A program made the translations under genes and the position numbers. Shown here piece by piece: positions 2,895-45,439 of a DNA stretch of 64,000 bases. Source of the DNA: Gammaproteobacteria bacterium (lineage in GTDB: Bacteria > Pseudomonadota > Gammaproteobacteria > Steroidobacterales > Steroidobacteraceae); contig JADZCS010000227.1 in the NCBI GenBank assembly GCA_020851435.1, positions 1 through 64,000 of the forward strand, in the 5' to 3' direction. The first letter of the stretch is position 1. Each line of letters begins with the position of its first letter. The notes under the pieces are model-generated. The model had not been told where the DNA came from and searched no databases. It saw only the letters and a program-made list of their open reading frames with translations.

Positions 2895-3755
2895 ATGGCG
2901 GCACTGCTCGATCACGCCGGCTTCGTCGGCCGCGACATGACCAGGATGCGCGCTGCGTTCACGCGCCTGGGGTTTTCGCCCACCGAGGCGCGCGCGCTGT
3001 CGCGTCGCGAGGCGGGTCAGAGCGTCCCGCTCGGGCAGTCGAGCGCGCACATCGTGTTCGGCGATACCTACCTCGAACTCAGCGCGGTCGAGACCGACTC
3101 GCCGACGCACCACCTCGCGGGCTACGCGGGCCGCTACGAGGGCCTGCACATCCTGGCCCTGCGCGATGCGGAGCTGCAGGCCGCCCATGCCGCCGCGGCG
3201 CGCGCGGGCGCGGCACCGATGCAGATCGCGGAGGCTTCGCGCGAGGTCGACTACGGCGCCGGCAGCCGGCCGGGACTGGCACGCTTCGATTGGTTCGCGC
3301 TGCCGCAGGCCGATTCGCCCGAAGGCCTGACCTGCCTCATGCGCCACCTCACGCCCGAACTGGTGTTCCAGCCGGCCGTGCAGCGCCACGCCAACGGCGC
3401 CCTGGCGCTGGACGCGGTCTGGGTCACCAGCGCCACGCCCGAGGCCACGGCGCGGCGTTTCGCGGGCTGGGCCAACGGCCGCGTCGAGCGCAGGAGCCGG
3501 GGATTCAGCGTCGCGCTGGGACAGGACCGCGGCCGCATAGAGGTCGTCGATCCGGCGGCCTTCGCCAGCCATTTCGCCGGCGCGCAGGCGCCCGCCGAGG
3601 CTTCTTTCGCCGGCCTGACGCTGCGCGTGGCCGACCTCGCCGTCACGCGCGCGCTGCTCGAGTCGCGCGGCGTGCCCCACGGCGGTTCGCTCTCGGGCGG
3701 GCTGTGGGTGGCGGCCACGGAGGCGGCCGGCGCGGTGCTGGAGTTCGTGGCCTGA
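2895..3755 (+). CDS. VOC-family protein (glyoxalase-like, two repeats)
   Basis: A 286-residue protein beginning MAALLDHAGFVGRDMTRM. It has the layout of the glyoxalase-like type: an N-terminal half starting DHAGFVGRD, with FGDTYLELS and GRYEGLHILAL, and a C-terminal half ending GLWVAATEAAGAVLEFV. This is the beta-alpha-beta-beta-beta duplication of the vicinal oxygen chelate superfamily. The metal ligands are incomplete by eye, so an enzymatic role is not certain. It is divergent from the bicupin gene and lies 40 bases before leuS on the same strand. No substrate can be named. Confidence 0.75.
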   Translation: MAALLDHAGFVGRDMTRMRAAFTRLGFSPTEARALSRREAGQSVPLGQSSAHIVFGDTYLELSAVETDSPTHHLAGYAGRYEGLHILALRDAELQAAHAAAARAGAAPMQIAEASREVDYGAGSRPGLARFDWFALPQADSPEGLTCLMRHLTPELVFQPAVQRHANGALALDAVWVTSATPEATARRFAGWANGRVERRSRGFSVALGQDRGRIEVVDPAAFASHFAGAQAPAEASFAGLTLRVADLAVTRALLESRGVPHGGSLSGGLWVAATEAAGAVLEFVA

Positions 3756-3781
3756 ACCTGCCGGCACGGTGCCGGGTCGGT

Positions 3782-3787
3782 TATCCT
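3782..3787 (+). promoter_or_regulatory. Candidate -10 hexamer of leuS
   Basis: TATCCT, eight bases before the leuS ATG. With normal spacing, transcription would begin at or next to the start codon. No convincing -35 is visible. Inference only. Confidence 0.35.
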
Positions 3788-3789
3788 AG

Positions 3790-6381
<2,592 letters not shown>

Positions 6382-6383
6382 GC

Positions 6384-6866
6384 ATGCGCGCCCGGCTCGC
6401 ACTGCTGGCCCTGCTCGCGACGCTGGCGGCTGGCTGCGGCTTCCACCTGCAGGGCGCGGCCACGCTGCCCGAGCGCCTGCGCGTGGGCTACCTCGACGCG
6501 CCGGACCGCTACAGCGACCTGCACGATGCGCTGGCCGAGGCCTGGACGGCCTCCGGCGGCCGGCTGGTGCCGACCGCGGGCGAGGCCGCGGCCGTGCTCA
6601 GGCTGCGCCGCGACGAATCGGGCGAACGCGTGCTGTCGATCTCGGCGAGCAACACGCCGCGCGAGTACGAGGTGTACTACACGGTGGAGTATTCGGTCAG
6701 CGTGGCCGGCAAGGAAGTGCTGCCGCCGCAGGTGCTGACGCTGACGCGCAGCTACAGCTACGACGAGACGGCCGTGCTCGCCAAGGAGCACGAGGAGCGC
6801 CAGATCCGCGAGGCGATGGCCCGCGAACTCGCGGCCCTCATGATGCGCCGGCTCGCGGCGCTCTGA
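6384..6866 (+). CDS. lptE: LPS-assembly lipoprotein LptE
   Basis: A 160-residue lipoprotein with a classic signal peptide and lipobox LAAGC; Cys18 would be lipidated. The mature protein begins GFHLQGAATLPERLR, the expected LptE start. It then has the family pattern of YEVYYTVEYSVSVAGKEV and a Tyr-rich SYSYDETAVLAKEHEE segment before a helical C-terminus. LptE plugs and assembles the LptD barrel in the outer membrane for lipopolysaccharide export. It starts two bases after the leuS stop. In most relatives holA follows directly; here the next genes are unrelated and holA is about 15 kb away. Confidence 0.95.
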   Translation: MRARLALLALLATLAAGCGFHLQGAATLPERLRVGYLDAPDRYSDLHDALAEAWTASGGRLVPTAGEAAAVLRLRRDESGERVLSISASNTPREYEVYYTVEYSVSVAGKEVLPPQVLTLTRSYSYDETAVLAKEHEERQIREAMARELAALMMRRLAAL

Positions 6867-6874
6867 GCGCCGGC

Positions 6875-7327
6875 ATGCGCCTGCTCGACGAGCCCGCGCT
6901 GCGCAGTGCCCTGGTCGCACTGCTCGGGCGCTACGGCCTGACGATCGAGTGGGTCGGCGACGGCCAGTCGATCCGCGGCTCCTACCACGGCGAGCCCGAG
7001 GCCGGCCTGCTGCAGAGCACGCTCTACCTGCGCCACGACACGCCCCTGCACTCGGCGCTGCACGAGGCCTGCCACTTCATCTGCATGGACCCGGCGCGTC
7101 GCGCCGCGCTCGACACCGATGCCGGCGGCGACTTCGCCGAGGAGGACGCGGTCTGCTACCTGCAGATCCTGCTGGCCGGCGAGCTCGGCGTCAGCCGCGC
7201 CGACGCCTGCGCCGACATGGACGAGTGGGGCTATACCTTCAGGCTGGGTTCCGCCGGCAAGTGGTTCGAGGCGGATGCCGCCGATGCCCGCGCCTGGCTC
7301 GTCAACCGCGGGCTGGCCGCCGCATAA
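6875..7327 (+). CDS. Small HExxH protein, putative minimal zincin
   Basis: A 150-residue protein eight bases after lptE, so probably in the same transcript. I do not recognise a named family. It carries HEACH at residues 63-67, a perfect HExxH zinc-protease motif in a hydrophobic helix ([13 protein letters not shown]). About 22 residues later [15 protein letters not shown] offers Glu89 or Glu90 as a third ligand in a second helix. This helix pair is what IrrE-like and other minimal gluzincins show, but no signal peptide or further domain is present. Active peptidase, inactive scaffold and a chance motif all remain possible. Base composition matches the housekeeping neighbours, so it does not look recently acquired. 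Confidence 0.75.
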
Positions 7328-7370
7328 GCGGGTCCTTGAGCCGGCGCCCACCTCGGGCCACACTGCGCGC

Positions 7371-8738
<1,368 letters not shown>

Positions 8739-8784
8739 GGCGGGGAGCGGTTCGGTAGAGGTTCAATTTCGGGACAGATAGCCG

Positions 8785-8804
8785 ATTCGTAGGTGTATAC
8801 GAAT
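8785..8804. repeat. Short inverted repeat at the edge of the AT-richer block
   Basis: Perfect 7-base arms ATTCGTA (8785-8791) and TACGAAT (8798-8804) separated by six bases. It lies in the 94-base gap between sdaA and the convergent gene below, where base composition drops. It could be a weak terminator, an operator or a remnant of an integration boundary. No T tract follows. Confidence 0.4.
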
Positions 8805-8832
8805 TGGTGGTCAATGACGACTGCGTGACCAT

Positions 8833-9453
8833 CTACCGACTTTCCTCAGCAGCGCCTTCGTTGTCGTTTTCTGCGGACGGAGGCGCGTACAGACGGGCGG
8901 GGCGCGGTGACTCGACTGGCAGTAGATCGCGCTCAAGCACGATTATGCCGACGTCCTCCCGCCGCCGGTTCGGCGGATACGGACCCGGCACCGTGAAGAC
9001 TCCCATCACCGGGGTGAACGGGTAATAGAGCGTTACTCCGGTCGGTGCGCGCGGAAGTTTGCCCGAGCCTTCAACGATTGTGATTGTGTCACCGAGGCAC
9101 GCCTGGCACAGCGCGGCGTCTACCGTCGCTGCAAGCACTGCGCGACGATCGGACCAGCGAACCGCTCCATAGACAAGCACCGTTCGTCCGTCGTATTCAG
9201 ATGGATGTGCGATCAGCCTCGACAGTGACGGTGAGCAGATTTCCTGCATCTGAATCCTGTCGGGATTCCAGAACGGCCACTCAACCTCCACGCACCCCAT
9301 GTCGTTGAACCGATACGCAGCATCACGTTGCCTGGTCTCGATGACCGCCCATACCGCAGCGACCAGGAACAACAACACCGCAAGACCCGCCATCACGTTG
9401 CGACGCAACGGAACGGCTGTTTCATCCGAGTCCACATTGCCAGTTTTCAGCAC
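8833..9453 (-). CDS. Unrecognised signal-anchored protein with conserved cysteines (paralogue A)
   Basis: About 206 residues from the GTG at 9453; ATGs at 9393 and 9507 are alternatives and none has a good ribosome site. After a basic stretch, MAGLAVLLFLVAAVWAVIE is a signal anchor or signal peptide. The outer domain has EICSPSLSRLIAHPSEYDGR, then YGAVRWSDRRAVLAA and a CQAC motif, ending in DVGIIVLERDLLP. The same pattern recurs in the divergent gene at 9664-10077, so the two are paralogues. The LxRLIxxPxEYxGR segment resembles a widespread small module of unknown function that I know only by pattern. Composition is AT-richer than the flanks. Function unknown. Confidence 0.6.
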   Translation of the reverse strand: MLKTGNVDSDETAVPLRRNVMAGLAVLLFLVAAVWAVIETRQRDAAYRFNDMGCVEVEWPFWNPDRIQMQEICSPSLSRLIAHPSEYDGRTVLVYGAVRWSDRRAVLAATVDAALCQACLGDTITIVEGSGKLPRAPTGVTLYYPFTPVMGVFTVPGPYPPNRRREDVGIIVLERDLLPVESPRPARLYAPPSAENDNEGAAEESR

Positions 9454-9663
9454 GTTGGATGTCCCGCGGCAGCTACCGGTGGAGATGGTCCGTAACGATA
9501 GCGGCATACTCCAGCCGGTATCGCCATGTACACTGCGACCAGACAGTCTGCTCTGGTAGCGGGCCATCCGCAGTGCTGAGTTCAGTAGAGATGCTTGTGA
9601 AGTCTAGCGAATTCCGCGCTCTCTCAACAATCATGGGCATATTGACACTGCTCGCCGCCGCCG

Positions 9664-10077
9664 GTGCGGGAAGAGAATCGCATCGATCAGCGGGAAGTAT
9701 GCACACCCTCGCTTCCTCGCCTGTTGGCGAACCCAGCGGAGTACGAGGGGCGGTTCCTCTGGGTCGTCGGGTCGGTCGCTTGGTCAGAGCGCGAGGCATT
9801 CCTGGCGACCAGCACTGATCTTGCCCTTTGCCCGGAATGTGCCACCAATGTCATCCGCCTTGCGAATGGTCCGTCCCGACTGCCGCCCGCTGGCGAAGGT
9901 GTTGTGCGCTACCATCCACTGGCGTATGTGGCGGGTAGGTTTCGGCTGGATAGAGCAGGAGCGGGGGAGCCGAAGCTTGAGGTCGGTGTGATTGAATTGG
10001 AGCGGGACGTTCACCTCCTGCCTGCACTACCGAATGCACAACCCTATGTATCGCAACGCGGATCAGAGGGCCCCTGA
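9664..10077 (+). CDS. Paralogue B of the cysteine-containing protein, possibly frameshifted
   Basis: From the GTG at 9664 this encodes 137 residues: REVCTPSLPRLLANPAEYEG, then VGSVAWSEREAFLA, CPEC, and EVGVIELERDVHLLP. These align one-to-one with paralogue A, including all three cysteines. What is missing is the membrane leader. A suitable leader, starting MLVKSSEFRALSTIMG and followed by a hydrophobic run, is encoded just upstream in another frame from the ATG at 9591 and runs into this frame near 9660-9670. The frame itself has a TGA at 9643. Either a one-base frameshift broke the gene, or the read carries an error, or the short GTG form is expressed without a leader. The pair is head to head. 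Confidence 0.5.
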   Translation: MREENRIDQREVCTPSLPRLLANPAEYEGRFLWVVGSVAWSEREAFLATSTDLALCPECATNVIRLANGPSRLPPAGEGVVRYHPLAYVAGRFRLDRAGAGEPKLEVGVIELERDVHLLPALPNAQPYVSQRGSEGP

Positions 10078-10147
10078 GCGTGACCCAAGCGTAGGTTGAG
10101 TGGGGTCCCGAGAATTTGGGGCGCACCGGGGCGATTCGCGAATGCGA

Positions 10148-10591
10148 TCAGAATAGTGTGGCGACCCCGACCGCCAGTACGAACGTCGATACACCAATCC
10201 AGAATCGCACGAATGCCCGGCGGCTGATGCGCGCTCCCGACAGGAGTTGAAGCCAGTAGCCGTCATAGGTGTTTCTTCCGGCCAGTCGCGCCAGCGCGAG
10301 AGTCAACGGCAACGACAGGAAGGCAAAGAGACCGATGAGCAGAAACGTCCACTTGCCAGGATTCGCGGGCTCAACGATCGACGACAACAGATAGCTGGCA
10401 AGTGGTGCCGCTACCAAAATCGCGCCAAAGATTGCGAAGATGACCTTCGGCCAAAGGGTGTTACCCGCTGTAGCGGATCGCGGCGATTCTCGATCCTGGC
10501 CAGACCATAATGCGCGGAACCCCTGAATAACCAGCCCAAGCGCAATCATCGCGATCGCAGCGGCCAGAAAGTTAGCAATCTCTATTGCCAT
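10148..10591 (-). CDS. Unrecognised small membrane protein
   Basis: 147 residues from the ATG at 10591; the frame is open to an ATG at 10639, but that extension is less hydrophobic and neither start has a clear ribosome site. Four hydrophobic segments are visible: NFLAAAIAMIALGLVIQG, VIFAIFGAILVAAPLASYLL, WTFLLIGLFAFLSLPLTLAL and FWIGVSTFVLAVGVATLF. A basic loop (GARISRRAFVR) precedes the last one. No enzyme motif is present. It lies between paralogue B (convergent) and another membrane protein gene on the same strand. Composition is AT-rich relative to the genome. Family and function unknown. Confidence 0.55.
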   Translation of the reverse strand: MAIEIANFLAAAIAMIALGLVIQGFRALWSGQDRESPRSATAGNTLWPKVIFAIFGAILVAAPLASYLLSSIVEPANPGKWTFLLIGLFAFLSLPLTLALARLAGRNTYDGYWLQLLSGARISRRAFVRFWIGVSTFVLAVGVATLF

Positions 10592-10674
10592 ATCAGCGCT
10601 GTTACGAAAGATGCTCGGGTTGACTCGCTGCTGCCCCATTCAACGGGCGCCGGGGCTCTGTGCAAGCCGCTTCC

Positions 10675-11439
10675 TCAGGGAACGAGCCTCACCTGCAATT
10701 CTGCCAGTCGATCTTCGAGCATGTGTTCGGTTGGATCGCGGAACTCGAGTGAGAAGAACCGGCCATCCACCAGCCATACCTTGCCGTCGTTTCTGGCTCC
10801 CTGCGCCGTGGTCAGGCTGAACTCAGCCAGCACCCTTTCGCCCTCGGCACCGCTGAGGCGCAGCGAGCTGTCGATTACTGGCTTTCCGTCCTTCATTTCG
10901 TAGACGTTCACTTCTCGGCCGCCATCCAACCGCTGGACCAGATTGATTCGCGCTATCCGTTCGCTTAAATTGCCTGCGCGTTCGGCATCGAGCTGCGCGA
11001 TCACCCCGTCCAGAATCTTCCTCTCCAGCGGTTTGAAGCCGGGTGTTCCCTTCCGGAAGAACGCAGTGAGTGACCGAAAGGCATCCATGGCCAACGCCCC
11101 GCGCCCGCGAGACCAACGCCGGCTCCGACGGCTCAACGGTTGTCCGATCGCGTAGTCCAGGAACACTCCCCAGTAGTAGCCGCCCCAAAGGCACATCGGG
11201 AGATAGTAAAACACCACGCCTGCCGCATTTGCCCAGTATTTCGGATCCTGCGGTCCCCGACCAGAGAAGTGAAGCGAAATCGCGCTGAGTCCCACCCACA
11301 CTACTGGTGCGAACCAGGTCACACCCGCGCTGACCGCTGACCCTCGATTCCGCCAAACGCCGCGCTTGCGAAATAGCCATAGTGTCCAGCCAATGAATGC
11401 GGACCACGCTATCACCCAGAGTACCGCCCACGCGCTCAT
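10675..11439 (-). CDS. Unrecognised membrane protein with cytoplasmic C-terminal domain
   Basis: 254 residues. The N-terminal third holds three probable membrane segments (MSAWAVLWVIAWSAFIGWTL, SAGVTWFAPVVWVGLSAISL, and ANAAGVVFYYLPMCLWGGYY). A highly basic stretch around SRRSRRWSRGRG follows, then a soluble domain of about 140 residues with alternating charged beta-like segments ending LEDRLAELQVRLVP. I do not recognise the domain. It is the probable upstream partner of the membrane protein at 10148-10591, with an 83-base gap. On the opposite strand an open frame begins over its 5' end. Confidence 0.55.
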   Translation of the reverse strand: MSAWAVLWVIAWSAFIGWTLWLFRKRGVWRNRGSAVSAGVTWFAPVVWVGLSAISLHFSGRGPQDPKYWANAAGVVFYYLPMCLWGGYYWGVFLDYAIGQPLSRRSRRWSRGRGALAMDAFRSLTAFFRKGTPGFKPLERKILDGVIAQLDAERAGNLSERIARINLVQRLDGGREVNVYEMKDGKPVIDSSLRLSGAEGERVLAEFSLTTAQGARNDGKVWLVDGRFFSLEFRDPTEHMLEDRLAELQVRLVP

Positions 11440-11649
11440 CTCACTGCAGCCTCAAGGCCCGGGGCGTTCGCGATTCGTGGTTCTCTGCTGCTATTCATCG
11501 CGCATCTAGTAATAGACTACGAAGGTACGGCAATAATTTCGGACGCGGTGCCCCAACCACTAGCACCTATTGCTCCTGCATCGTATGAAGAACTGAGCCT
11601 GCACATGCAGCGGCAAGACTTCTTTTGGCTGCGTCGCGGGGCGACATAG
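11383..11649 (+). other. Open reading frame without a normal start, coupled to the next gene
   Basis: Between stop codons at 11382 and 11647 this frame is open for 88 codons. Its second half reads like protein: a hydrophobic run LLLFIAHLVIDYEGTAIISD, then SYEELSLHMQRQDFFWLRRG. Its stop TAG (11647-11649) shares its last base with the GTG at 11649 of the next gene, a typical coupled junction. There is no ATG, GTG or TTG at a sensible place; only CTG or ATT codons near 11473-11485. It may be the 3' remnant of a gene whose start was lost, or chance. Confidence 0.3.
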
Positions 11650-12065
11650 TGCTCGATACTCTGCAGCGGACATGCGTTTTTTCGTCTCTATTGCTCGAAA
11701 GAATGTTTCGGGCGATCTCCGACGACGGTTTCTCGAAGTGGAAGGCAGGTGTCGTAACTATCGGAACAGAAGCGCTTCTAGTACTTGTTTCGGCCGCAAC
11801 TGTATCGGTAACGTTTGGATCAAGGCTCTACCTTCCGCGGTCAGAGCCGCAACGAGTCATTGTCGCCATAGCGATCGTCGCGACCCTGCTAGCGCTAAAT
11901 TGGCAGAGTGAACGACGTTGGGTCCTGAGATGTCAGGTGGAGTTGGATGGCTGGTCCTCGAAAAGAAGGCGCCTCAGGACTGTAGTGCTTCTGACGGCAA
12001 TCGCGGCAACTGTGGTAGCGGCGGGAATCTCTGCCAAGATCGTATCGCAGGAGTTCGGGCCATAA
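11649..12065 (+). CDS. Unrecognised small membrane protein
   Basis: 138 residues from the GTG at 11649, chosen because it overlaps the stop of the preceding open frame; TTG 11625 and ATG 11703 are in the same frame, and the ATG gives a tidier N-terminus, MFRAISDDGFSKWKAG. Three hydrophobic segments follow: TEALLVLVSAATVSVTFGS, VIVAIAIVATLLAL and VVLLTAIAATVVAAGISA, the last two separated by a basic loop (SSKRRRLR). No known motif. Codon use is AT-rich as in the rest of this block. Possibly a two- or three-pass inner-membrane protein; function unknown. Confidence 0.45.
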   Translation: MLDTLQRTCVFSSLLLERMFRAISDDGFSKWKAGVVTIGTEALLVLVSAATVSVTFGSRLYLPRSEPQRVIVAIAIVATLLALNWQSERRWVLRCQVELDGWSSKRRRLRTVVLLTAIAATVVAAGISAKIVSQEFGP

Positions 12066-12247
12066 TACGCCACTTGACCAGCATGCTGGAACTCGCCGAG
12101 GGGCTGCCGAGGGACTATTGATCCGACCTGAATCGCCTCGGGTTTCCCCGGCCGTCAGTAGGCAGACCGGATGTCCGATCAGGATGTGTCTGTGAAATCT
12201 GGTTCGGTTCAGTACCGCTCGGCGCAATGTCAACGGGGTGGCTAGAT

Positions 12248-12415
12248 ATGGATAACCTCAAGCCCTGGCGCTCGCCAAAAGCCTGGCTTAAGTCAGCCGC
12301 AACGGTCGGCATCGTCTGGTCTTTGGTGTACTTGATGACAGGGAGCTTGCGGGCAGCCACAACAGCCTCCGTCATCGTTGTTGTGGCTGGGATCGTTGGT
12401 GCGATGTATACGTGA
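12248..12415 (+). CDS. Very small membrane protein
   Basis: 55 residues from the ATG at 12248, preceded by GGGGTGG about ten bases upstream; an in-frame ATG at 12227 would add seven residues. The N-terminus is polar and basic (PWRSPKAWLKS), followed by two hydrophobic stretches, VGIVWSLVYLMTG and ATTASVIVVVAGIVGAMY, with positive charges between them. This is the layout of a small hairpin membrane protein. The antisense frame is also open, but reads as low-information sequence. No family recognised. Confidence 0.45.
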   Translation: MDNLKPWRSPKAWLKSAATVGIVWSLVYLMTGSLRAATTASVIVVVAGIVGAMYT

Positions 12416-12766
12416 GTCGATATTTGAGCGACCAACCGATGCCCGCCACTGCGACGCCCAGCGCGCCTCGTGACCAGGTCCTTCGCCGCGCGGAGTAAGG
12501 AAAGTGGGAAGCAGAGGGCTTCGTAGCGGATTCAGTTTGGGGTTCCGCACCGGCTCGCTGTGCTTTGCCGCCGGGAGAGCATCAACACTGAATTAGCGCC
12601 CGAGCTCCATGGCGTTCACTCTCCGACCCCGCTGCTTCCTCCCAGGCCACCACAGACATGTTGCTTCGGTCGTCGCTGGCGAGGCGCACGCCACGCACGG
12701 GCGCAACAACGTGCGACCGAGCAGTGGCGTGCATCGCTCAACCCCCATGGACGCCGACCGAGCGCC
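12416..12766. other. Non-coding stretch at the right edge of the AT-richer block
   Basis: About 350 bases between the small membrane gene and the end of the tricorn-like gene. Base composition changes back to the genomic pattern across it. I see no convincing start-plus-ribosome-site combination, no RNA gene, no hairpin with a T tract and no transposase remnant. Open frames here are short and lack protein-like character. Confidence 0.5.
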
Positions 12767-15700
12767 TTACTTCACCTTCACCGGATCAGCCGGCCGCGGC
12801 GGCAGGCCACGCGGCGTCGCCGGCAGCTTGCGCATCACCTCGGCTACGGCGCGATCGAGCTGGGCGTCCTCGCCGCGCATGACCGCGGCGGGCTCGTTCT
12901 CGACGACGATGTCCGGGCTCACGCCTTCGCCCTCGATCACGTAGCGCCCGTCGGCGCTCGCGGTCGCGTATTCGGGCACGAAGGTCAGTCCGCCGTCGAT
13001 GAGCGGGCCGTGGTCGGTGATGCCCACCACGCCGCCCCAGCTGCGCTTGCCGATCAGCGGGCCCAGGCCCGCCTCGCGGAACATGTACGGGAAGATGTCG
13101 CCGTCGGACGCGGAGGTCTCGTTGACCAGCGCCGCCATCGGCCCGACCTGTACGGCGCTCGGGTAGGTGTCGATCGTTTCCCCGTTGCGCGCGTAGCCCA
13201 GTCCGGTCAGCTTCCGCGACAGGCGCCCGATCAGCATCTGCGAGATGTTGCCGCCGCCGTTGCCGCGCACGTCGACGATCAGGCCTTCCTTGCGCTTCTG
13301 CGGGTACCACCACTTGGTGAACTCGCGGATGCCGTCCTCGCCCATGTCCGGGATGTGGATGTAGCCGAGTCGGCCGCCGCTGGCGCGCGCGACGCGCTCC
13401 ATATTGCCGTGCACCCACTCCAGGTACAGCAGGGAATCTTCGCTGCGGATCGGCTGCCAGGCGACAGTGCGCGCGCCCTTGCCATCGGCAGTTGAGGCGA
13501 CCTTCCATTCCACTGGCTTGCCGGTCTCGGCCTGCAGCAGCTGCCAGGGGTTGTCGCTCGCGCGCAGCTCCCGGCCGTTGATGGCCAGCACGTAGTCGCC
13601 AACCTTCACGTCCACGCCGACCTCGGTCAGCGGCGAGCGGTAGGTCTGCTCCTCGTTCTGGCCGGCGAAGATCTTCGAGATGCGGTAGCGGCCCGCGGCC
13701 GCGTCCAGCTCGAAGCGCGCGCCGGGCAGCGCGACCTTCGGCCTCGCCGGCAGCCGCGTGTCGCCGCCCTGGATGTAGGCGTGCGATACGTTCAGCTCGC
13801 CGATCATCTCGCCGATGATGTAGTTGAGGTCGCTGCGGTGCGCCACGTGGCGCACCAGCGGTGCATAGCGGTCGCGCAGCGCGGCCCAGTCGTAACCGTG
13901 CATGTTGGCCGCATAGAAGTGGTCGCGGAACCTGCGCCAGGTCTCGGCGAAGATGCCCGCGTACTCTTCGGACGGCACGCGATCGACCGCCAGGCCGTCG
14001 AGCGACACGCCCTTGGCGTCCTTGGCATCGGCGCCGGCCTCGGCGACCTTGAGTTCGCCGCCCGGGTAGCTCAGCAGCACCTTCTTGCCGTCGGCCGAGA
14101 GCTCGTAGCCCTGCACGTCCTCGCCGACGGTCTTGGCCTCGCGGTCCTCGATCGAGTAGGCGACCAGTCGCGGCTTTTCCGTTCCTTCCCGGCCGTAATA
14201 GAACGGGCTGATCACGCGATAGAGCAGGTGCTTGTCGGTGACGCTGAGGTCGGTGTAGTTGTCGGGGTCGACAGGCACGCGCAGCGCGCGCCCGACGAGG
14301 CCGTCGAACTCGATCCTCAGGTCCCTGGGCTTCTGCGGCGCCTCGTCGTCCGCCGGCTTCTTCTTCGCGTCCTTCTCCGCGGGCTTCTCGTCGTCGTTGC
14401 GCGCGGCGAACGGGTTGCCGACGTCGCGGCGCAGCGCCACGGCATAGATGCCGATGTTGCGGCTGCCCGCGAAATCGAACTCCTGGTTCGAGAGCTGCGG
14501 GTGGAACTCGCGCAGGCTCAGGAAGTACAGCAGTTCGCCCTTCGGGTCCCAGGCGGGGTTGCCGGCCTGGAAGTTCTCGGGCGTGACGCGGCGCGACTGG
14601 CCGTCGGCCGAACTCCACACCCACACAGACTGGAACTGCGCGTCGTCGGTGCGTGAGTAGGCGAGGTAGCGCGAGTCGGGCGAGAAGCGGTAGTCGGTGG
14701 GCGCCTCGGCTCGATCGTCGTAGACCTGCGTGAGCTTGCGGCTGGCCACGTCGACCACGAACAGGCGGCTGTCCTTGTCGCGCAGCGCGATGCGTGCCGA
14801 GTCGGGCGACCACACCGGGTGATACCAGCGGGTCTTGGACCCGGAGGTCAGGGCGCGCGCGGCGCCGCCGCCGTCGGCGGGCGTCACGTACAGTTCTTCC
14901 TCGCCGCTGGCGTCCGAGATGTAGGCGACGAGCTTGCCGTCCGGCGACCAGGCTGCCTCTCGGTCGTGCGCGCCCGAGGAGCGCGTGAGGTTGCGGGTCA
15001 CGCCGTCGCGCGCCGGCACCGTGAACACGTCGCCGCGTGCCACGATCAGCACGCGCTCGAGGCCAGGGCTGGCCTGCACGGATTCGACGTTGTCCTTGAC
15101 CGCGAGCCGCTCGGGCCGCGTTGCCACGCCGTCGGTGGGCACGTGCACGCTGAGCGCGCGGTCCGTTCCCGCGCGCGTGTCGAACACGTGCAGTTCGCCA
15201 CCCAGTTCATAGGCGATCTGGCCGGCGCCGTCGGCGCTGGGCCAGCGCACGTCGAAGCTGGTCGAGTGCGTTGCCTGCGTGGTCTGTCCGCTCGCGGTGT
15301 CGTAGCGGTAGAGGTTCAGCGTGCCGCTGCGATCCGAGGCGAACCAGACCGAGCCGCCGATCCACATCGGGTCGCGGTCGGTGCGCGCGTCGTCGGTGAT
15401 GCGCTGCAGGCCCTGGGTGGCGAGGTCCAGGATGTAGAGGTCCGAGGCCCAGCCGCCCTGGTAGCGCTTCCAGGTCCGGAAGTCGCGCCACAGCGGCGAA
15501 TACACGACGCGCTTGCCGTCGGGCGAGAAGTCCGCGCCGCCGCCCTTGGGAACCGGCAGCTGCACCGGCAGGCCGCCGGCCACGGGCACGGTGTACAGCT
15601 TGGCGTCGCTCATCCCGAAGGCGTCGCGCTTCGAGCGGAACAGGATGGACTTGCCGTCGGGGGTCCAGCCGTAGACGAGGTTGTCGTAACCCCAGCGGTC

Positions 15701-16036
15701 CGGCAGCGGGCCCGCTGCGGGGTAGAAGGTCAGCTGGCGCGGCACGCCGCCGGTTGCCGGCATCACGTAGACCTGCTCATCGCCGCCGTACTGGCCCGTG
15801 AAGGCGATCCACTGGCCGTCGGGCGAGAAGCGCGCGAACAGCTCGAGGCCCGGATGCGCGGTGAGCCGCACGGCCGTGCCGCCGCTCGTGGGCACGGTCC
15901 ACAGGTCGCCACCGTAGGTGAAGACGACCTTGTCGCCGTGGATGTCCGGGAAGCGCAGCAGGCGCGTCGGCTCGTCGGCCGCCTGGGCGGTCATCGAGCA
16001 GGCGAGCAGCGTGGCGGCGATCAGGTAACGATGCAT
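12767..16036 (-). CDS. Secreted tricorn-like S41 protease
   Basis: 1089 residues with a signal peptide (about residues 1-19, ending TAQA), so periplasmic. The first part, about residues 25-550, is beta-propeller with repeated [27 protein letters not shown] and SPDGKLVAY blades. A charged linker rich in Lys/Asp/Glu (around 550-590) separates it from a helical region, a PDZ-like segment near 770-860 ([12 protein letters not shown]) and an S41 core. By my count the catalytic set of Thermoplasma tricorn protease is present: Ser751-His752 (NVSHAY), Ser977-Asp978 (TSASDGD) and Glu1046 (IVVENEP). Tricorn trims short peptides from larger degradation machines. It has a GGGGGA ribosome site and follows the iminopeptidase gene by 36 bases. 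Confidence 0.92.
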
Positions 16037-16072: not shown

Positions 16073-17038
16073 TCAGCGTGCGCGGGCGAAGGCATCCGTG
16101 GCGGTCACGAGCTGGTGCGTGTTGCCGGCCTCCATGGCCGAGTGACCCGCATCGGGAACGACGTGGAACGCGGCCTCGGGCCAGGCCTGGTGCAGGGCCC
16201 AGGCAGACATCATCGGGCAGACCACGTCGTAGCGGCCCTGCACGATCACGCCCGGGATGTGCCGGATGCGGCCGACGTCGGCCAGCAGCTGGTCCTCGCG
16301 GCGGAAGAATCCGCCGTTGACGAAGTAGTGGCACTCGATGCGCGCGACCGCGAGCGCGAACTTGTCCTGGCCCCAGCTCGCCACGTTGGCCTCGTTGGGC
16401 AGCAGGAAGCTCGTCGAGCCTTCCCACACGGCCCAGGCGCGCGCGGCGGCGACCGCCTCGCGGCGATCGTCGCCCGTGAGGCGGCGGTAGAACGCGCGGA
16501 TCATGTCGCCGCGTTCCTTCGCGGGAATCGCCGCGGCGTAGGCCTGCCAGCGGTCCGGGTACAGCGCGCCGGCGCCGTGCGGATCCTGGTAGAACCAGTC
16601 GAGCTCGGTCTTGCGCAGCATGAAGATGCCGCGCAGCACGAGTTCGGTCACGCGCTCGGGATGGGTCTCGGCGTAGGCGAGGCCCAGCGTCGAGCCCCAG
16701 GATCCGCCGAACACCAGCCAGCGCTCGATGCCGAGGTGTTCGCGCAGCTGCTCCATGTCGGCCACGAGGTGCCAGGTGGTGTTGGCCACGAGGCTCGCAT
16801 GCGGCCGGCTGCGGCCGCAGCCGCGCTGGTCGAACACCACGATGCGGTAGCGCTTCGGGTCGAAGAAGCGCCGCGAGGTGGTGCCTGCGCCGGCGCCGGG
16901 GCCGCCGTGAACGAACACCGCGGGCTTGCCCTTGGGATTGCCGCATTCTTCCCAGTAGATGCGGTGACCGTCGCCGACCTTGAGGAAACCGTGCCGGTAG
17001 GGCTCGATCTCGGGATACAGCTTGCGTTGCCTGGCCAT
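16073..17038 (-). CDS. pip: Prolyl iminopeptidase
   Basis: 321 residues, alpha/beta hydrolase. VFVHGGPGAGAG is the oxyanion-hole segment, FDQRGCGRSRPHA is the conserved strand-turn, and VFGGSWGSTLGLAY holds the nucleophile serine in GGSWGS. Near the C-terminus GRYDVVCP and DAGHSAME supply the acid and histidine. It removes N-terminal proline from peptides in the cytoplasm; no signal peptide is visible. The start ATG has GAGGGG about ten bases upstream. It sits between the DUF3299 gene (13-base gap) and the tricorn-like gene. The archaeal tricorn partner F1 is also a prolyl iminopeptidase, which makes the adjacency notable. Confidence 0.95.
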   Translation of the reverse strand: MARQRKLYPEIEPYRHGFLKVGDGHRIYWEECGNPKGKPAVFVHGGPGAGAGTTSRRFFDPKRYRIVVFDQRGCGRSRPHASLVANTTWHLVADMEQLREHLGIERWLVFGGSWGSTLGLAYAETHPERVTELVLRGIFMLRKTELDWFYQDPHGAGALYPDRWQAYAAAIPAKERGDMIRAFYRRLTGDDRREAVAAARAWAVWEGSTSFLLPNEANVASWGQDKFALAVARIECHYFVNGGFFRREDQLLADVGRIRHIPGVIVQGRYDVVCPMMSAWALHQAWPEAAFHVVPDAGHSAMEAGNTHQLVTATDAFARAR

Positions 17039-23726: not shown

Positions 23727-24292
23727 CCACCAAAACGTCGAAGCCGAAGTCCTCCAAGACCACTGCCGCAAAGCCCCGGGCCGCCAAGCCCGCCGCCGCG
23801 CGCAAGACCGCCAGGCCCGCCGCCCCGGCCGTGGGCCTGCCCCACCGCAAGGCCATCGCCAAGCGACCCGCAGCTGCGAAAGTTCCAGCCAAGACCGCCG
23901 CGAAGGCCCCGGTCAAGGCCGGCGCGCGCAAGCCGGCTGCGAAGCCGAAGGCGCCCAGCCTTGCCCAGATCGCCGTTACGGCGCTCGAGGACCTCAAGGC
24001 GCACAACATCAAGGTCCTCGACGTCAGGAAGCTGACGGACGTCGCCGACACGATGATCATCGCCACCGGCACCTCCAATCGCCACGTGCAGTCGCTCGCG
24101 ACCCGCGTGGTCGACCGCATCGAGGAAGCCGGATACCGCGCGCTGGGCATCGAGGGCCAGAGCGAGGGCGAGTGGGTGCTCGTCGACCTGCAGGACGTGC
24201 TGGTGCACGTGATGCAGCCGCGCATCCGCGAGTTCTACGGGCTCGAGAAGCTCTGGGAATCGCGCGAATCGCGCGACAGCTCCGCCGCCTGA
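23723..24292 (+). CDS. rsfS: Ribosomal silencing factor RsfS with a long basic N-terminal tail
   Basis: 189 residues against about 105-120 for typical members. The conserved core starts near residue 79 (SLAQIAVTALEDLKAHNIKV) and has DTMIIATGTSNRHVQSLA, GIEGQSEGEWVLVDLQDVL and VHVMQPRIREFYGLEKLW, all classical. RsfS binds ribosomal protein uL14 and blocks subunit joining. The first 78 residues are almost only Lys, Ala, Pro, Arg and Thr (for example KTSKPKSSKTTAAKPRAAKP), like the tail of histone H1-like proteins. No ATG near the core could give a shorter product, and the ATGA overlap with nadD supports the long form. The role of the tail is unknown. Confidence 0.93.
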   Translation: MTTKTSKPKSSKTTAAKPRAAKPAAARKTARPAAPAVGLPHRKAIAKRPAAAKVPAKTAAKAPVKAGARKPAAKPKAPSLAQIAVTALEDLKAHNIKVLDVRKLTDVADTMIIATGTSNRHVQSLATRVVDRIEEAGYRALGIEGQSEGEWVLVDLQDVLVHVMQPRIREFYGLEKLWESRESRDSSAA

Positions 24293-24311
24293 GGCGGCGG
24301 GGCCGCCGCGC

Positions 24312-24782
24312 ATGCTGATCCGCCTGATCGCCGCCGGCACGCGGCTGCCGGGCTGGGTCAACGACGGTTACGCGGAATACGCCGCGCGGCTCGGGCCGAA
24401 GATCCGGCTCGAGCTGCGCGAGATCCCCGTCACCCCCCGCAGCAAGAACGCCGACCTCGCGCGCGCGCGCGCCGAGGAAGGCCGGCGCATGCAGGCGGCG
24501 ATCGAGCCGGGCATGTACGTGGTGGCGCTGGAGGTCGGCGGCAAGGCGCTGTCGACCGAGGGGCTCGCGAAGTGGATGGCGCAGCGACTGCAGGACGGTC
24601 GTGACGTCGCGCTGCTCGTGGGCGGCCCCGACGGCCTCGAACCCGAACTCTCCAGGGGCGCCGACCTGCGCTGGTCGCTGTCGGCCCTGACCTACCCCCA
24701 CGCTCTGGTGCGCGTGGTGCTGGCCGAGCAGCTGTACCGGGCCCAGTCGATCCTGGACGGCCACCCCTACCACCGCGCCTGA
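24312..24782 (+). CDS. rlmH: 23S rRNA pseudouridine-1915 N3-methyltransferase
   Basis: 156 residues, the normal size. It begins MLIRLIAAGTRLPGWVNDGY and carries the SPOUT-fold signature LLVGGPDGLEPELSRGADLR followed by LSALTYPHALVRVVLAEQLY, which forms the trefoil knot that binds S-adenosylmethionine. It methylates the pseudouridine in helix 69 of 23S rRNA. It lies 19 bases after rsfS, the usual partner. Confidence 0.97.
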   Translation: MLIRLIAAGTRLPGWVNDGYAEYAARLGPKIRLELREIPVTPRSKNADLARARAEEGRRMQAAIEPGMYVVALEVGGKALSTEGLAKWMAQRLQDGRDVALLVGGPDGLEPELSRGADLRWSLSALTYPHALVRVVLAEQLYRAQSILDGHPYHRA

Positions 24783-24867
24783 TTCGCTCGCCCCGGAGTG
24801 ACCGGACGGGCTATCCTTGAGGGCTCGACTCCCCGGTCCCGGTCCCAGGCAAAGATTAAACCCTTCA

Positions 24868-25464
24868 ATGACTTACGCCCCCATCGTGCTGGCCTCCGCC
24901 TCTCCCCGCCGCAGCGCCCTGCTGACCCAGATCGGCGTGGCCCACGAGGTGCTGGCTACCGACCTCGACGAGGCGCGCCTGCCGGGCGAGCCGCCGCACG
25001 TCTACGTCGAACGCCTCGCGCGCGACAAGGCGCTTGCGGCGCGCGCGGCGCTGGGCAATGCGGATCGCGTGCTGCTCGCCGCCGACACCTCGGTGGTGCT
25101 CGGCGACGAGATCTTCGGCAAGCCCGAGGACGAGGCCCACTGCGTGCGCATGCTCATGGCGCTGTCCGGGCGCACGCACGAGGTGATGACGGGCATCGCC
25201 GTGCTCGCGGGCGAGACGCTGCTCGCGGACGTCAACGTCAGCCGCGTGAGTTTCCGCGCGCTCGATGACGAAGAGTGCCGCCGCTACTGGCGCACGGGCG
25301 AGCCGCGCGGCAAGGCCGGCGGTTACGCCGTGCAGGGATTCGCAGCGACTTTCATCGAGCGCATCGACGGCAGCTACTCGAGCGTGATGGGCCTGCCGCT
25401 GTTCGAAACCGCGCGCCTGCTGGCCGCGGCGGGCGTGCCGGCCTGGCGGCAGGAGGGCGCATGA
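24868..25464 (+). CDS. maf: Maf-type nucleotide pyrophosphatase
   Basis: 198 residues. The Maf signature IVLASASPRRSALLTQIG is at the start, with YVERLARDKALAARAA, LLAADTSVVLGDEIFGKP and GKAGGYAVQGFAATFIERI after it. These proteins hydrolyse dTTP, UTP or modified nucleotides. Which subgroup this is cannot be decided by eye. A TATCCT hexamer about 50 bases upstream of the ATG suggests its own promoter after rlmH. The last four bases overlap the start of rng (ATGA). Confidence 0.93.
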   Translation: MTYAPIVLASASPRRSALLTQIGVAHEVLATDLDEARLPGEPPHVYVERLARDKALAARAALGNADRVLLAADTSVVLGDEIFGKPEDEAHCVRMLMALSGRTHEVMTGIAVLAGETLLADVNVSRVSFRALDDEECRRYWRTGEPRGKAGGYAVQGFAATFIERIDGSYSSVMGLPLFETARLLAAAGVPAWRQEGA

Positions 25465-26927
25465 GCAACGAGATCCTGGTCAACGTCACGCCGCGCGAAA
25501 GCCGCGTCGCGCTGGTCGAGAACGGCGTGCTGCAGGAGATCTACGTCGAGCGCGCCAATCGCCTCGGCCTGATCAGCAACATCTACAAGGGCCGCGTATC
25601 GCGTGTGCTGCCCGGCATGCAGGCGGCCTTCATCGAGATCGGCCTGGACCGCACGGCGTTCCTGCACGCGGCCGACGTCGCGCCGCCGGCCGGCTGCGAC
25701 GAGGGCATCGAGCCGCCGCGTCCCGAGAGCATCCGCGAGCTGCTGGCCGAGGGCAGCGACATCCTGGTGCAGGTCCTCAAGGATCCGCTGGGCACCAAGG
25801 GCGCGCGGCTGACGACCTACATCACGCTGCCCTCGCGTTACCTGGTCTACATGCCCAAGGGCCGCGGCATCGGCGTCTCCTCGCGCATCGAGGAGGAAGC
25901 CGAAAGACAGCGACTGCGCGACGCGCTGCAGGACGGCGAGGCGGACATGCCGGGCGGCTGGATCGTGCGCACGGCGGCCGAGGGCGCCAGCGTCGAGGCG
26001 CTGCGCGCGGACATGCTGTACCTGCGCCAGCTGTGGCGCATGGTCGCGGAGCGCGGCCTCTACGCGCGGGCCGGCGAGCTCGTGCACGAGGACCTGCCGC
26101 TGCACGTGCGCAGCCTGCGCGACCTGCTCGGCGAGGGCATCGAGCGCGTGCTGGTCGACGCGCCCGCCGCGCACGTGCAGATGGTAGAGTTCACGCGCAG
26201 CTTCATGCCGGGGTCTGAGGCGCGCATCGAGGCCTATACCGGCTCGCGGCCGATCTTCGACCTGTACGGCGTCGAGGAGGAGATCGACAAGGCGCTGGAG
26301 CGCAAGGTGCCGCTCAAGTCCGGCGGCTACCTCATGATCGATCAGACCGAGGCGATGACCACGATCGACGTCAATACCGGCGCGTTCGTGGGCCATCGCA
26401 ACCTCGAGGACACGATCTTCCGCACCAACCTCGAGGCGGCGGTGGCCATCGCCCGCCAGCTGCGCCTGCGCAACCTCGGCGGCATCATCATCATCGACTT
26501 CATCGACATGCAGGACGTCGAGCACCGCCGGCAGGTGCTGCAGGCCCTGGAGAAGTCGCTGGTGGCCGATCACGCCAAGACCAGCATCTCCTCGGTGTCG
26601 CCGCTGGGCCTCGTCGAAATGACCCGCAAGCGCACGCGCGAAAGCCTGGAACATCTGCTGTGCCGGCCTTGTCCAAGCTGCGAGGGACGCGGATTCCTGA
26701 AGACGCCGGAGACGGTCGCCTACGAGATCTTTCGCGAGGTGCTCCGGCAGGCGCGGCAGTTCGAGTTCCAGGAGGTCCGCGTGCTCGCGCACGAGGACGT
26801 CGTGGCCCTGCTGCTGGACGAGGAATCGGCGCCGCTGGGCGAGCTCGAGCTCGCGGTGGGCAAGCCGATCCGCCTGCAGGCGGAGGCGCTGTACGGCGGC
26901 GACCAGTACGACGTGGTCCTGATGTAG
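25461..26927 (+). CDS. rng: Ribonuclease G
   Basis: 488 residues, the usual length. It begins MSNEILVNVTPRESRVALVE, then an S1 domain (NIYKGRVSRVLPGMQAAFIE), the catalytic region with MIDQTEAMTTIDVNTGAFVG and LGGIIIIDFIDMQDVEHRRQ, and the zinc-link cysteines CRPCPSCEGRG near the end. The two aspartates in TIDVN and IIDFID coordinate the catalytic magnesium. RNase G processes the 5' end of 16S rRNA and some mRNAs. Overlaps maf by four bases and is followed by yhdP. Confidence 0.97.
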   Translation: MSNEILVNVTPRESRVALVENGVLQEIYVERANRLGLISNIYKGRVSRVLPGMQAAFIEIGLDRTAFLHAADVAPPAGCDEGIEPPRPESIRELLAEGSDILVQVLKDPLGTKGARLTTYITLPSRYLVYMPKGRGIGVSSRIEEEAERQRLRDALQDGEADMPGGWIVRTAAEGASVEALRADMLYLRQLWRMVAERGLYARAGELVHEDLPLHVRSLRDLLGEGIERVLVDAPAAHVQMVEFTRSFMPGSEARIEAYTGSRPIFDLYGVEEEIDKALERKVPLKSGGYLMIDQTEAMTTIDVNTGAFVGHRNLEDTIFRTNLEAAVAIARQLRLRNLGGIIIIDFIDMQDVEHRRQVLQALEKSLVADHAKTSISSVSPLGLVEMTRKRTRESLEHLLCRPCPSCEGRGFLKTPETVAYEIFREVLRQARQFEFQEVRVLAHEDVVALLLDEESAPLGELELAVGKPIRLQAEALYGGDQYDVVLM

Positions 26928-26937
26928 GCGGTGATGA

Positions 26938-29900
26938 TTGGGTCCTACGGCACGCAGGATATGGCGATGGAGCGCGGGCGTACTGGCCGCGATCGCCATC
27001 CTGTCCGCGCTGGTCGTCGCCGGCCTGCGCATAGCGTTCGATAGCCTGCCCGGCTACCAGGCCCAGGTCGCGGCGCAGGTCCGCGCGCTGACCGGCCTGG
27101 AACTGCGCTTCAAGCGCCTGGACGCGCGGCTTGGCTGGTCCGGCCCCGAGGTGTTCTTCGAGGAAGCCGCCGTACTCATGCCGAACGGGCGCGAGGTGCT
27201 GGTCAGCGCCGCGGCCGGCCGTGTCAGCTTCTCGCTGTGGCGCAGCGCCATCAACCGGCGTATCGAGGTCGGGCGCATCGCGCTCGAGAAGCCGCGCATC
27301 AACGTCGTGATCCTGGACGACGAGCGCGTCGAACTCGTGGGCCAGTCGATGCTGCCGCGCGCGAGCGCCGATGGCGTTGAAGGCTTCAACCTCGGCAAGC
27401 TGAGGCAGGGCCGCCTGTTGATCGCTGATGCGACCGTGCGCTTCGTCGACCTGCGCTCGCACGAGGCCTGGGAGGTCACCGACGTCACGCTGGACCTCAC
27501 GCGCGACGGCGGGGGCCTGCGGTTCGACGGCCACGTGGACCTGCCGCGCCGGCTCGGCTCGAGCATCGACCTCGACGGCGAACTGCAGGGCGACCTCGGC
27601 AATTTCGACGCGGTGGCCTGGAAGGCCCGCGCGACCGCGCGCAACGCCGACCTCGGCGGCTGGGCGCGGCTGGTGCCGGCTAGCCTGTCGCCGCCGCTGA
27701 CCGGTCGCGGCTACCTGCGCGTGATGGGCAGCGGCACGGGCCGGCGCTTCGACGGCGGGCGACTGGCGCTGGAACTGCGCGACGTGTGGGTGGGCGGTAA
27801 CGAAGGCCCTGCGGAACGCTACAAGGTCATCGCGGGCGAATACCGCCTGGAACGACAGGGCGCGCGCTGGGCACTGTCGGGCAAGGACGTCGAGTTCTCG
27901 CGCCCCGGCGCCCCGTGGTCGCCCGCATCGCTGGAGGCGAGCGTCACGCTCGGCGACGGCCGCCTGCAGGCAGCCACGCTCAGGACGAAGTTCCTCGATC
28001 TCTCCAGCCTGGCGCCGATCGCGCGCGTGCTGCCGGCGGGCGCGCTGCACGACGCGCTGGTCGCAGCGGACCCGTCGGGCCAGCTGCGCGATGTCTCGCT
28101 GACTCTGGCGTGGAACGACCGCGGCGCCATGCCCTCGGCCACGGGCGGGTTCTCGTTCGAGGACCTGGGCATCGGCGCGATCGGCCGTGCGCCCGGACTG
28201 CGCGGTCTCGCGGGGCGCCTCGATGCAACCGGCGACGTGGGCAAGCTCAGCATCGCGTCGCAGGGCGTCGAGTTTCGCTGGCCCAGCCAGTTCCGCGACG
28301 TCATCGGTCTGACCGCCGGCCTCACCGCGGGCTGGCGCAGCGTGCCCAACGGCGTGCAGCTGTGGGTCGACGACGCGCGCCTCGACACCGGCCACGGTCG
28401 CGCATCGGCCAGCCTGCGCATGCTGCTGCCCGGCGACGGCAGCACGCCGCTCATGAACCTCTCGGGCGTCGTCACGGATGCCGAGGTCACCCAGACCTGG
28501 CGCTACCTGCCGATCGGCATGCTGTCGCCGGGTGCGCTGAGCTGGCTGGATCCGGCCTTCCGCGCCGGCAAGCTGACCCACGGCACCATCTCGATCGTCG
28601 GGCCGGTCCACGGCTTCCCGTATCGCGAGGGCCAGGGCCTGTTCAAGGCTCTTGCCCACATCGAGGGCCTCACGCTCGACTATGCGACGGGCTGGGCGCC
28701 GCTCGAGGGCGCCACTGCCGACGCGGAGTTCGTCAACGTCGGCCTGCGCGCGCGTTCCAGCGTCGCGAGCGTGCGCGGCATTCCGCTGGGCCCGGTCGAG
28801 GCGGAGATCGCGGACTGGCGCGAGATGCTGCTGCTGGTGCGGACCTCGGCCGAGGCGCCCGTCAAGCCCGTGCTCGACTTCCTGCAGCTGAGCCCGCTCG
28901 GCAAGACGCTCGGCCCCAGCTTCATGGGCCTGACCGGCGCGGGCCGCGTCAGCGGCGACGTCGTGCTGTTCCTGCCGATCAAGCGCTTCAAGGACCGCGC
29001 GATCAACGCCACCGCGCGGCTGGAGGACGTGACGCTCGGCACGCGCGACGGCACGGAACAGCTGACGCATCTCGCCGGCACGCTGACGGTCATGAACCGC
29101 GAACTCTACATGCCGCGCTTCACCGCGGAGGCGCTGGGCGGCGCCGTCGCCGGCACGCTGAACACGCGCCGCGGCAAGCGCGAGGCGCTGCTCACGGTGC
29201 TCGAGGCACGCGGACGCTTCGACGGCCAGCGGCTGCAGAAGTTTGCGAAGCTGCCGCTCAATTCCGGCCTCGAGGGCAGCACCGACTACGCGCTGCGCGT
29301 CGACATCGACCGGCCGTCCTCGACGAAGCCTTCAAAATATCTAGTGAAAGTGGACAGCAGCCTGGTCGGAATGGCCATGGGCCTGCCGGGCCCGCTGACC
29401 AAGCCTGCCTCGAAGGCGCTGCCCATCAGCATTTCCGTCGACGCCGGCGCGCCGGACGTGATCGCTTCGCGCATCGAACTGGCCGACGTGGCGCGCGCGC
29501 AGCTGGAGTTCCGCAAGCCCGGCGAGCACTGGCAGATCGATCGCGGCGAGGCCGTGTTCGGCAGCGCGCGCGAGCCGGTGCTGGCCGACGAGCCGGGCCT
29601 GCGCATCACCGGCAGCGTGCCGCGCGCGAGCCTCAGCGAGGTGCTCGACCTGCGCTGGGCGGAGCCGTCGAAGCGGCGCGTATCGGAGTGGCTCACGCTC
29701 ATCGACCTGTCGGTAGGCGAGGCCGAGGCGCTGGGCTATGCCTTCGACCGTCCGCACGTGCGCATGGTGCCGGGCAACGAGGCCTGGCAGATCGACGTCG
29801 ACGGGCCGATGGTCCGCGGGCGGCTGACCGTACCCTTCGAGTTCCCGGGACAGGTGCCGATGGTGCTCGACATGGACAGGCTGCACGTGGGCGAGCGCGT

Positions 29901-30801
29901 GCGCGCCGGCGGCGGCGAGATCGACCCGCGGCGCCTGCCGAGCATCCGCTTCGACGTACGCGACCTGCTGTTCGACCGCCGCCGCTTCGGCGCGGTGCGC
30001 GCCGAGCTCACGCGCGGCACGCAGGGCCTGTCGTTGGGCCGGCTCGACGTGCACCACGCGGACTTCCAAGCCACGGGCCGCGGCGGCTGGATCGTCGACG
30101 AATCCGGCGCGCAGCGCTGCAACGTGGCCATCGATGCCACGAGCACCAACGTTGCGGGCTTCCTCAAGGCCATGGGTTACGCGCCCATGCTCGAATCGAA
30201 CCAGGGCAAGGGTCGCGCCGACCTGAGCTGGCCCGGCGGTCCCGACGGCAGCTTCTACGAGCGCCTGAATGGCACGATCAAGCTGTCGCTGGGCCAGGGG
30301 CGCATTCCGGAGCTGGATCCGGGCGCGGGGCGCGTGCTGGGGCTCATGAGCCTCGCGCACCTGCCGCGCCGCCTCGCGCTGGACTTCAAGGACGTGACTG
30401 GCGAGGGCCTGGTGTTCGATTCGATCGGCGGTGACTTCTCGCTCAAGTCGGGCGAGGCCTACACGCGCAACCTGACGCTGCGCGGATCGGCGGCCGAGAT
30501 CGGCGTGGTGGGGCGCACCAACCTGCGCACGCGCCAGTACGACCAGACGGCGGTGGTCACGGGCGACATCGGCGGCACGATCGGGCTCGCGGGCGTGCTC
30601 GCCGGCGGGCCTGCGATCGGTGCCGCGCTGCTGCTGTTCACGCAGGTGTTCAAGGAGCCCCTCAAGGGCATGACCCGCGCCTACTATCGCATCAGCGGTT
30701 CCTGGGACCAGCCCAACGTCGAGCGCATCGGCGCGGCCCAGGCGCGCGAGTCGCGCGAGGAGCCTGCGACGCAGACACCGGAAACCGGAGGACCCCAGTG
30801 A
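26938..30801 (+). CDS. yhdP: YhdP-like AsmA-family phospholipid-transport protein
   Basis: 1287 residues, typical for YhdP. One N-terminal membrane anchor ([19 protein letters not shown]), then a very long series of beta-rich repeats of the AsmA/VPS13-like type, ending with the conserved [20 protein letters not shown] helix and a short tail. In E. coli, YhdP with TamB and YdbH bridges the periplasm and moves phospholipid to the outer membrane. The only workable start is TTG at 26938, with an AGGCGG site upstream. A run of unusually AT-rich codons occurs at residues 799-804. It is 10 bases after rng and overlaps the nitrilase start by four. Confidence 0.92.
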
Positions 30802-45365: not shown

Positions 45366-45439
45366 TGGGGGATCGTCTAGCGGTAGGACAACGGACTCTG
45401 ACTCCGTTTACCTAGGTTCGAATCCTAGTCCCCCAGCCA
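45366..45439 (+). tRNA. tRNA-Gln (CTG)
   Basis: 74 bases including an encoded CCA. Acceptor TGGGGGA pairs with TCCCCCA, discriminator G. The anticodon stem ACGGA/TCCGT encloses loop CTCTGAC, anticodon CTG, reading CAG. T arm CTAGG-TTCGAAT-CCTAG is perfect. The U1-A72 pair is typical of glutamine tRNA. It follows rpsI with no terminator between. Confidence 0.96.

Follow-up and report, generated by a model that had tools for sequence, protein, structure and literature searches.

Candidate orphan immunity genes in an AT-rich insert at the sdaA/pip junction of a Steroidobacteraceae genome

We analyzed a block of AT-rich genes, P1 to P6, within a 64,000-nucleotide stretch of DNA (the window) from a member of the Steroidobacteraceae. 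Our preferred reading, which we hold with slightly better than even confidence, takes the block for a small acquired island that is made up of orphan immunity genes and sits at a hotspot between sdaA and the gene for a pip-like hydrolase. Two of its six genes, P4 and P5, have a link to immunity. Because these two lead independently to the immunity position of Rhs loci and the block itself is toxin-free, we read its contents as orphan immunity genes. The putative immunity role is best founded for P5 and P4, and it extends to P1, P2, P3, and P6 only by the company they keep. The original prediction had pointed to the block as the likeliest place for an undescribed system; we find it better described as unassigned genes of a known kind. 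What is new is the protein families, and the kind of system is already known. With this reading, a set of "hypothetical membrane proteins" becomes a set of testable immunity candidates. Two families that Pfam and NCBIfam do not recognize are tied to Rhs immunity positions, one of them with a relative on conjugative IncC plasmids, and a convergent core-gene junction is seen to vary in cargo from genus to genus with no mobility gene present.

Composition and coding status of the block

The block and its flanks comprise the following features (TM, transmembrane).

7374 to 8738, plus strand: sdaA (L-serine dehydratase), left flank, assigned by Pfam SDH_alpha/SDH_beta and synteny
8739 to 12766, no strand: AT-rich insert, missing at the same junction in relatives; composition normal from about 12.6 kb
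8833 to 9567, minus strand: P1, a single TM helix followed by a domain in which cysteines (CxxC) are conserved
9664 to 10077, plus strand: P2, paralog of P1, with its TM part out of frame (about 9591 to 9663)
10148 to 10639, minus strand: P3, membrane protein with four predicted TM helices
10675 to 11439, minus strand: P4, N-terminal TM domain and soluble C-terminal domain (INxVQR...VWxVDGxxFSLEF family)
11649 to 12065, plus strand: P5, 138 aa, three TM helices, GTG start at 11649
12227 to 12415, plus strand: P6, 62-aa hydrophobic frame of uncertain coding status
12767 to 16036, minus strand: tricorn-like S41 peptidase, native composition, absent from the sdaA/pip junction in relatives
16073 to 17038, minus strand: pip-like alpha/beta hydrolase, right flank, convergent with sdaA

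The sdaA frame is listed from 7119; its conserved part begins at about 7374. In 4-kb windows, positions 8739 to 12766 form the lowest-GC stretch of the window (GC 0.594), compared to a mean of 0.702 (sd 0.016, minimum 0.666) outside the block. The fall in GC starts at the sdaA stop codon (8738), and GC is back up at ~12.55 to 12.7 kb, just short of the 3' end of the tricorn-like gene. GC3 is 0.58 to 0.69 in the block genes and 0.90 to 0.95 in neighboring genes. These values confirm the original prediction of an AT-richer block with a matching change in codon choice. The prediction that no transposase, integrase, or tRNA marks the edges also held: profile libraries detected no integrase or transposase at the site, no tRNA lies in the block region, and candidate terminal or attachment-site repeats at the block were matches of chance length only. 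We found no second copy of the block elsewhere in the genome and no pieces of the flanking genes within it, such as occur in an island of another genome described below. Across the window, the structured RNAs detected at gathering thresholds were a 6S RNA (50805 to 50989) and a tRNA-Gln (45366 to 45439), and no others.

A mobile-element remnant (phage, plasmid, or other) would account for the foreign composition, and a relative of the P4 domain does occur on conjugative IncC plasmids. We nevertheless regard such an origin as very unlikely, given that neither an integrase, a transposase, a tRNA, nor a terminal repeat was found and that searches with the block genes returned no PHROG or viral relatives. 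We rejected phage or plasmid origin as a candidate explanation; apart from the P4 domain on IncC plasmids, searches for it yielded no relatives.

Six candidate frames lie in the block, on strands - + - - + + in the order P1 to P6, with intergenic gaps of about 35 to 210 bases. As a null for coding status we simulated order-2 Markov sequences, which contain ~4 ORFs of at least 135 aa per region. We rejected ORF length as evidence of coding, as simulated sequence of the same composition often yields 160-aa ORFs, and instead relied on TM content, codon-phase statistics, and homology. P3 and P5, with four and three TM helices, exceed all simulated ORFs (at least three TM segments in 0 of 400 regions). 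Phase statistics for P1 and P2, homologs of P4 and P5, and TM content of P3 and P5 support the coding status of P1 to P5. TM segments are predicted in P1, P3, P4, P5, and P6 (five of the six frames), in agreement with the earlier description of the block as mostly membrane associated.

P1 and P2 are about 41% identical, bearing out the predicted pair of paralogs. Over 112 codons they differ at 51, 33, and 78 first, second, and third codon positions, respectively, so that differences fall mostly at the third. The start of P1 is uncertain (9567, 9507, or 9393). P2 is missing the linker that P1 has between its TM helix and its domain, and the TM start lies in another frame; P2 is probably a frameshifted, decayed copy of P1 and hence a pseudogene. 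AlphaFold models of P1 (pLDDT 51) and P4 (pLDDT 48) were poor. A fold search with the low-confidence P1 model hinted at an OB-fold (best E 0.015), a hint that is weak because the model is poor.

None of the profile family libraries recognized a family among P1 to P6, and the block genes had no match to the Pfam Imm families. PADLOC gave no match up to E 1, so none of the block genes falls in a known defense family, and PDB sequence searches with the block proteins returned nothing credible. We searched for P3, P4, and P5 in 217 genomes of the family, for P1 also in 59 relatives, and for P1/P2 and the P4 C-terminal domain in 369 genomes spread evenly over the class. The genes are nearly absent from these sets. 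Three relatives were recovered in all: one of the P5 type (genome G059), one of the P4 C-terminal domain (G200), and one of the P4 N-terminal domain (G060). P3 had no relatives, including in the 217 family genomes. The earlier statement that the genes belong to no recognized family therefore stands for the profile libraries and fails for P4 and P5, both of which have relatives beside Rhs genes.

The sdaA/pip junction in relatives

We located sdaA and the pip-like hydrolase gene in the 217 family genomes and read their surroundings. The order leuS - sdaA - pip is kept in three genera, with sdaA and pip convergent. Counted between their last codons, the two genes are separated in six genomes by only -2 (G008), 9 (G189), 16 (G197), 22 (G191), 61 (G190), or 291 (G194) bases. 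The spacing is 7,340 bases here and 3,972 bases in G024, and the extra 7.3 kb here consist of the AT-rich block plus the tricorn-like gene. The insert in G024 is also AT-rich (core GC 0.58 to 0.62) but encodes different proteins and includes a BrnT-type toxin gene (PF04365, E 1.6e-19) adjoining a weak BrnA match. The suggested comparison downstream of sdaA made the insertion visible, and the original description of accessory DNA acquired within a housekeeping region is supported: the core genes are adjacent in six relatives, G024 carries a different AT-rich cargo, and the block genes are nearly absent elsewhere.

Genome comparison, with the site unoccupied in six genomes and holding other cargo in G024, shows the junction to be a gene hotspot with cargo turnover and without mobility genes. 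Foreign genes lie between adjacent core genes, they turn over among relatives, and no mobility-associated protein accompanies them. Hotspots of this type have been described: 27% of hotspots had none of the integrases and transposases that were sought, and recombination is more frequent in core genes bordering hotspots (Oliveira et al. 2017, PMC5635113). The sdaA/pip junction resembles them in its foreign genes between core genes, varied cargo, and lack of mobility genes; however, those hotspots were defined within one species, whereas our comparison spans genera.

An artifact of assembly or binning deserves mention, since the source assembly has 348 contigs and 6.4% contamination and the composition of the block deviates. 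We give this explanation hardly any weight. A single 65-kb contig carries both flanks of the block, with leuS-sdaA and pip/TonB-receptor in the conserved arrangement seen in relatives, and the insert in another genome sits at precisely this junction.

Several features of the region stand apart from the block itself. The tricorn-like gene (GC 0.70, GC3 0.93) is extra at the junction relative to all compared genomes; its homologs lie elsewhere, and its best relative (53%) is in another family. A 117-bp direct repeat (88%) brackets the G024 insert (L010, G024:C91, 3869 to 3985 and 7669 to 7784), with a 17-mer also present in locus L036, and the brnT-like frame (L010, 5851 to 6111) apparently has no normal start. 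Palindromes occur at gene-free junctions in two relatives, as a long hairpin in G190 (L030, ~3016 to 3300) and as inverted repeats in G194 (L036, ~4937 to 4995). In several relatives (L031, L033, L039 to L044), leuS adjoins pip, without sdaA. A stretch next to pip in G196 (L032, 7333 to 7476) still resembles the sdaA N terminus, a remnant that suggests loss of sdaA.

Homologs of P5 and P4 at Rhs loci

The P5 relative in G059 is a 138-aa protein with three TM helices (L050, 1441 to 1857) and 27% identity to P5. Read from the GTG at 11649, P5 aligns with it nearly end to end, with a single three-residue internal gap, and the local score of 96 exceeds the maximum of 78 among 2,000 hydrophobicity-preserving shuffles. 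Just ahead of the G059 gene is a long YD/RHS-repeat gene with an RHS-associated core (TIGR03696, E 2.4e-15), and the stop codon of this repeat gene overlaps the start of the G059 gene. Judged by gene order, the relative occupies the position of a cognate immunity gene. This one locus (L050/L051) provides a P5 homolog that immediately follows an Rhs toxin gene and overlaps it. P5 and this homolog are alike in length and topology, but the G059 gene directly follows its Rhs gene, whereas P5 stands alone. The G059 Rhs gene and its immunity-position gene (L051, G059:C1:5000-17000) lie beside a tyrosine-recombinase gene, next to guaA/guaB.

The relatives of P4 correspond to its two domains. A 101-aa protein in G060 is related to the N-terminal TM domain and has no toxin nearby. 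The C-terminal domain has a relative in G200, a stand-alone 147-aa protein with 35% identity that is not beside an Rhs gene. A two-row profile of this domain matched a hypothetical protein of IncC plasmid pN069_1 (hhalign 97.7%, E 2.3e-12, 31% over 100 columns); the stretches INxVQR and VWxVDGxxFSLEF are common to both, and the shuffle z score is about 14. The matching gene lies in an IncC array (NZ_AP019818.1, 74895 to 88026), after an eroded RHS-core fragment, which puts a P4-domain homolog inside an array of Rhs tips and immunity genes. At the head of the array is an annotated RHS gene, and next come genes for barstar, a hypothetical protein, and DUF2247, the last being Imm38 (PMC3482391). 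Further on, the array contains unannotated RHS-core tips trailed by small genes, and it is also rich in small proteins with two to three TM helices. This is a single array present on four plasmids. As in the block, small soluble proteins and proteins with two to three TM helices surround the P4 relative; unlike the block, the array lies on one strand and has a full RHS gene and several RHS-core tips, and its P4 relative is without the TM anchor that P4 has. In locus L053 (NZ_AP019818.1 58000-92000), positions 23757 to 30027 hold several RHS-core tips that are absent from the gene table and interleaved with small genes.

Rhs-type and toxin genes also occur beside pip or at the junction in relatives. 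A 1,470-aa YD/RHS-repeat protein with an HNH-like tip is encoded immediately beyond pip in G183 (L040, G183:C1, 23 to 4435). This gene favors the orphan-immunity reading, and so do the BrnT gene at the sdaA/pip junction in G024, the Rhs immunity positions occupied by relatives of P5 and of the P4 C-terminal domain, and the variation of the junction itself, which is unoccupied in six genomes and has other contents in G024. Against it, P1, P2, P3, and P6 had no toxin link, each Rhs link of P4 and P5 comes from one locus, P4 has a TM domain missing from its array relative, and the gene orientation is mixed. Within the block itself, no Rhs remnant or toxin gene was detected in searches that included two Rhs-core probes.

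A generic hotspot offers a different account, in which AT-rich orphan genes of assorted origin share no function and have gathered at a convergent junction where insertion does no harm, and the Rhs links are incidental because immunity genes are common cargo. Mixed orientation, the lack of a shared operon, the four genes without a toxin link, and the entirely different cargo of G024 all fit this account, which we consider possible though rather unlikely. It does not readily explain why both genes with informative neighborhoods lead independently to Rhs immunity positions. We find it improbable that the genes form a single undescribed membrane-associated system, for example a defense or envelope-stress module whose products act together. 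Five of six frames encode membrane proteins of no known family, as such a system might; however, the relatives of P4 and P5 occur in different genomes and contexts, none of them with P1 or P3, and the block has alternating strands, one broken gene, and no PADLOC match.

Comparison with known polyimmunity loci

A polyimmunity locus contains several immunity genes uninterrupted by toxin genes, with small gaps and in the same orientation (Zhang et al. 2012, PMC3482391). Like such loci and orphan immunity arrays (PMC5361080), the block is made up of small genes without a toxin, of which P4 and P5 at least are related to proteins in Rhs immunity position, and relatives differ in content at the site, the relatives compared here belonging to other genera. 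It differs in having genes on both strands, mostly membrane proteins, and no attachment to a toxin or secretion cluster. The block fails on shared orientation, so that it departs from the canonical polyimmunity locus and calls for a qualifier if classed as one. A bolder reading, which we think rather unlikely, is that it holds several undescribed immunity families, including the TM-anchored P4 domain and the membrane-anchored, possibly OB-fold CxxC proteins P1/P2 acting in the periplasm, within a mixed-orientation, membrane-focused island at a convergent core-gene junction.

If the block is an island of orphan immunity genes, its cargo may have come from lower-GC donors, with homologous recombination through the core genes on either side as the way in. 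P5, with its three TM helices, and P4, with a TM anchor and a soluble domain, would act at or close to the inner membrane to neutralize toxin tips delivered by neighboring cells, a location that would suit toxins acting on or crossing that membrane. P1, P3, and perhaps P6 would be more cargo of the immunity kind. In Vibrio cholerae, DNA of the T6SS orphan immunity arrays moves by homologous recombination without fixed sites (PMC5361080); we liken the block to those arrays in its putative working.

In G200, the gene related to the P4 C-terminal domain lies in an island (L007, G200:C11:400000-413000, 3200 to 7700) that repeats 3'-end pieces of both its flanking genes. A coxE-like VWA gene is represented at 3218 to 3741 and 5564 to 6061 (79%) and an SPFH gene at 5421 to 5559 and 7506 to 7644 (90%). 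The repeats look as if left by additive recombination through the flanks, which would add whole flank-cargo-flank units.
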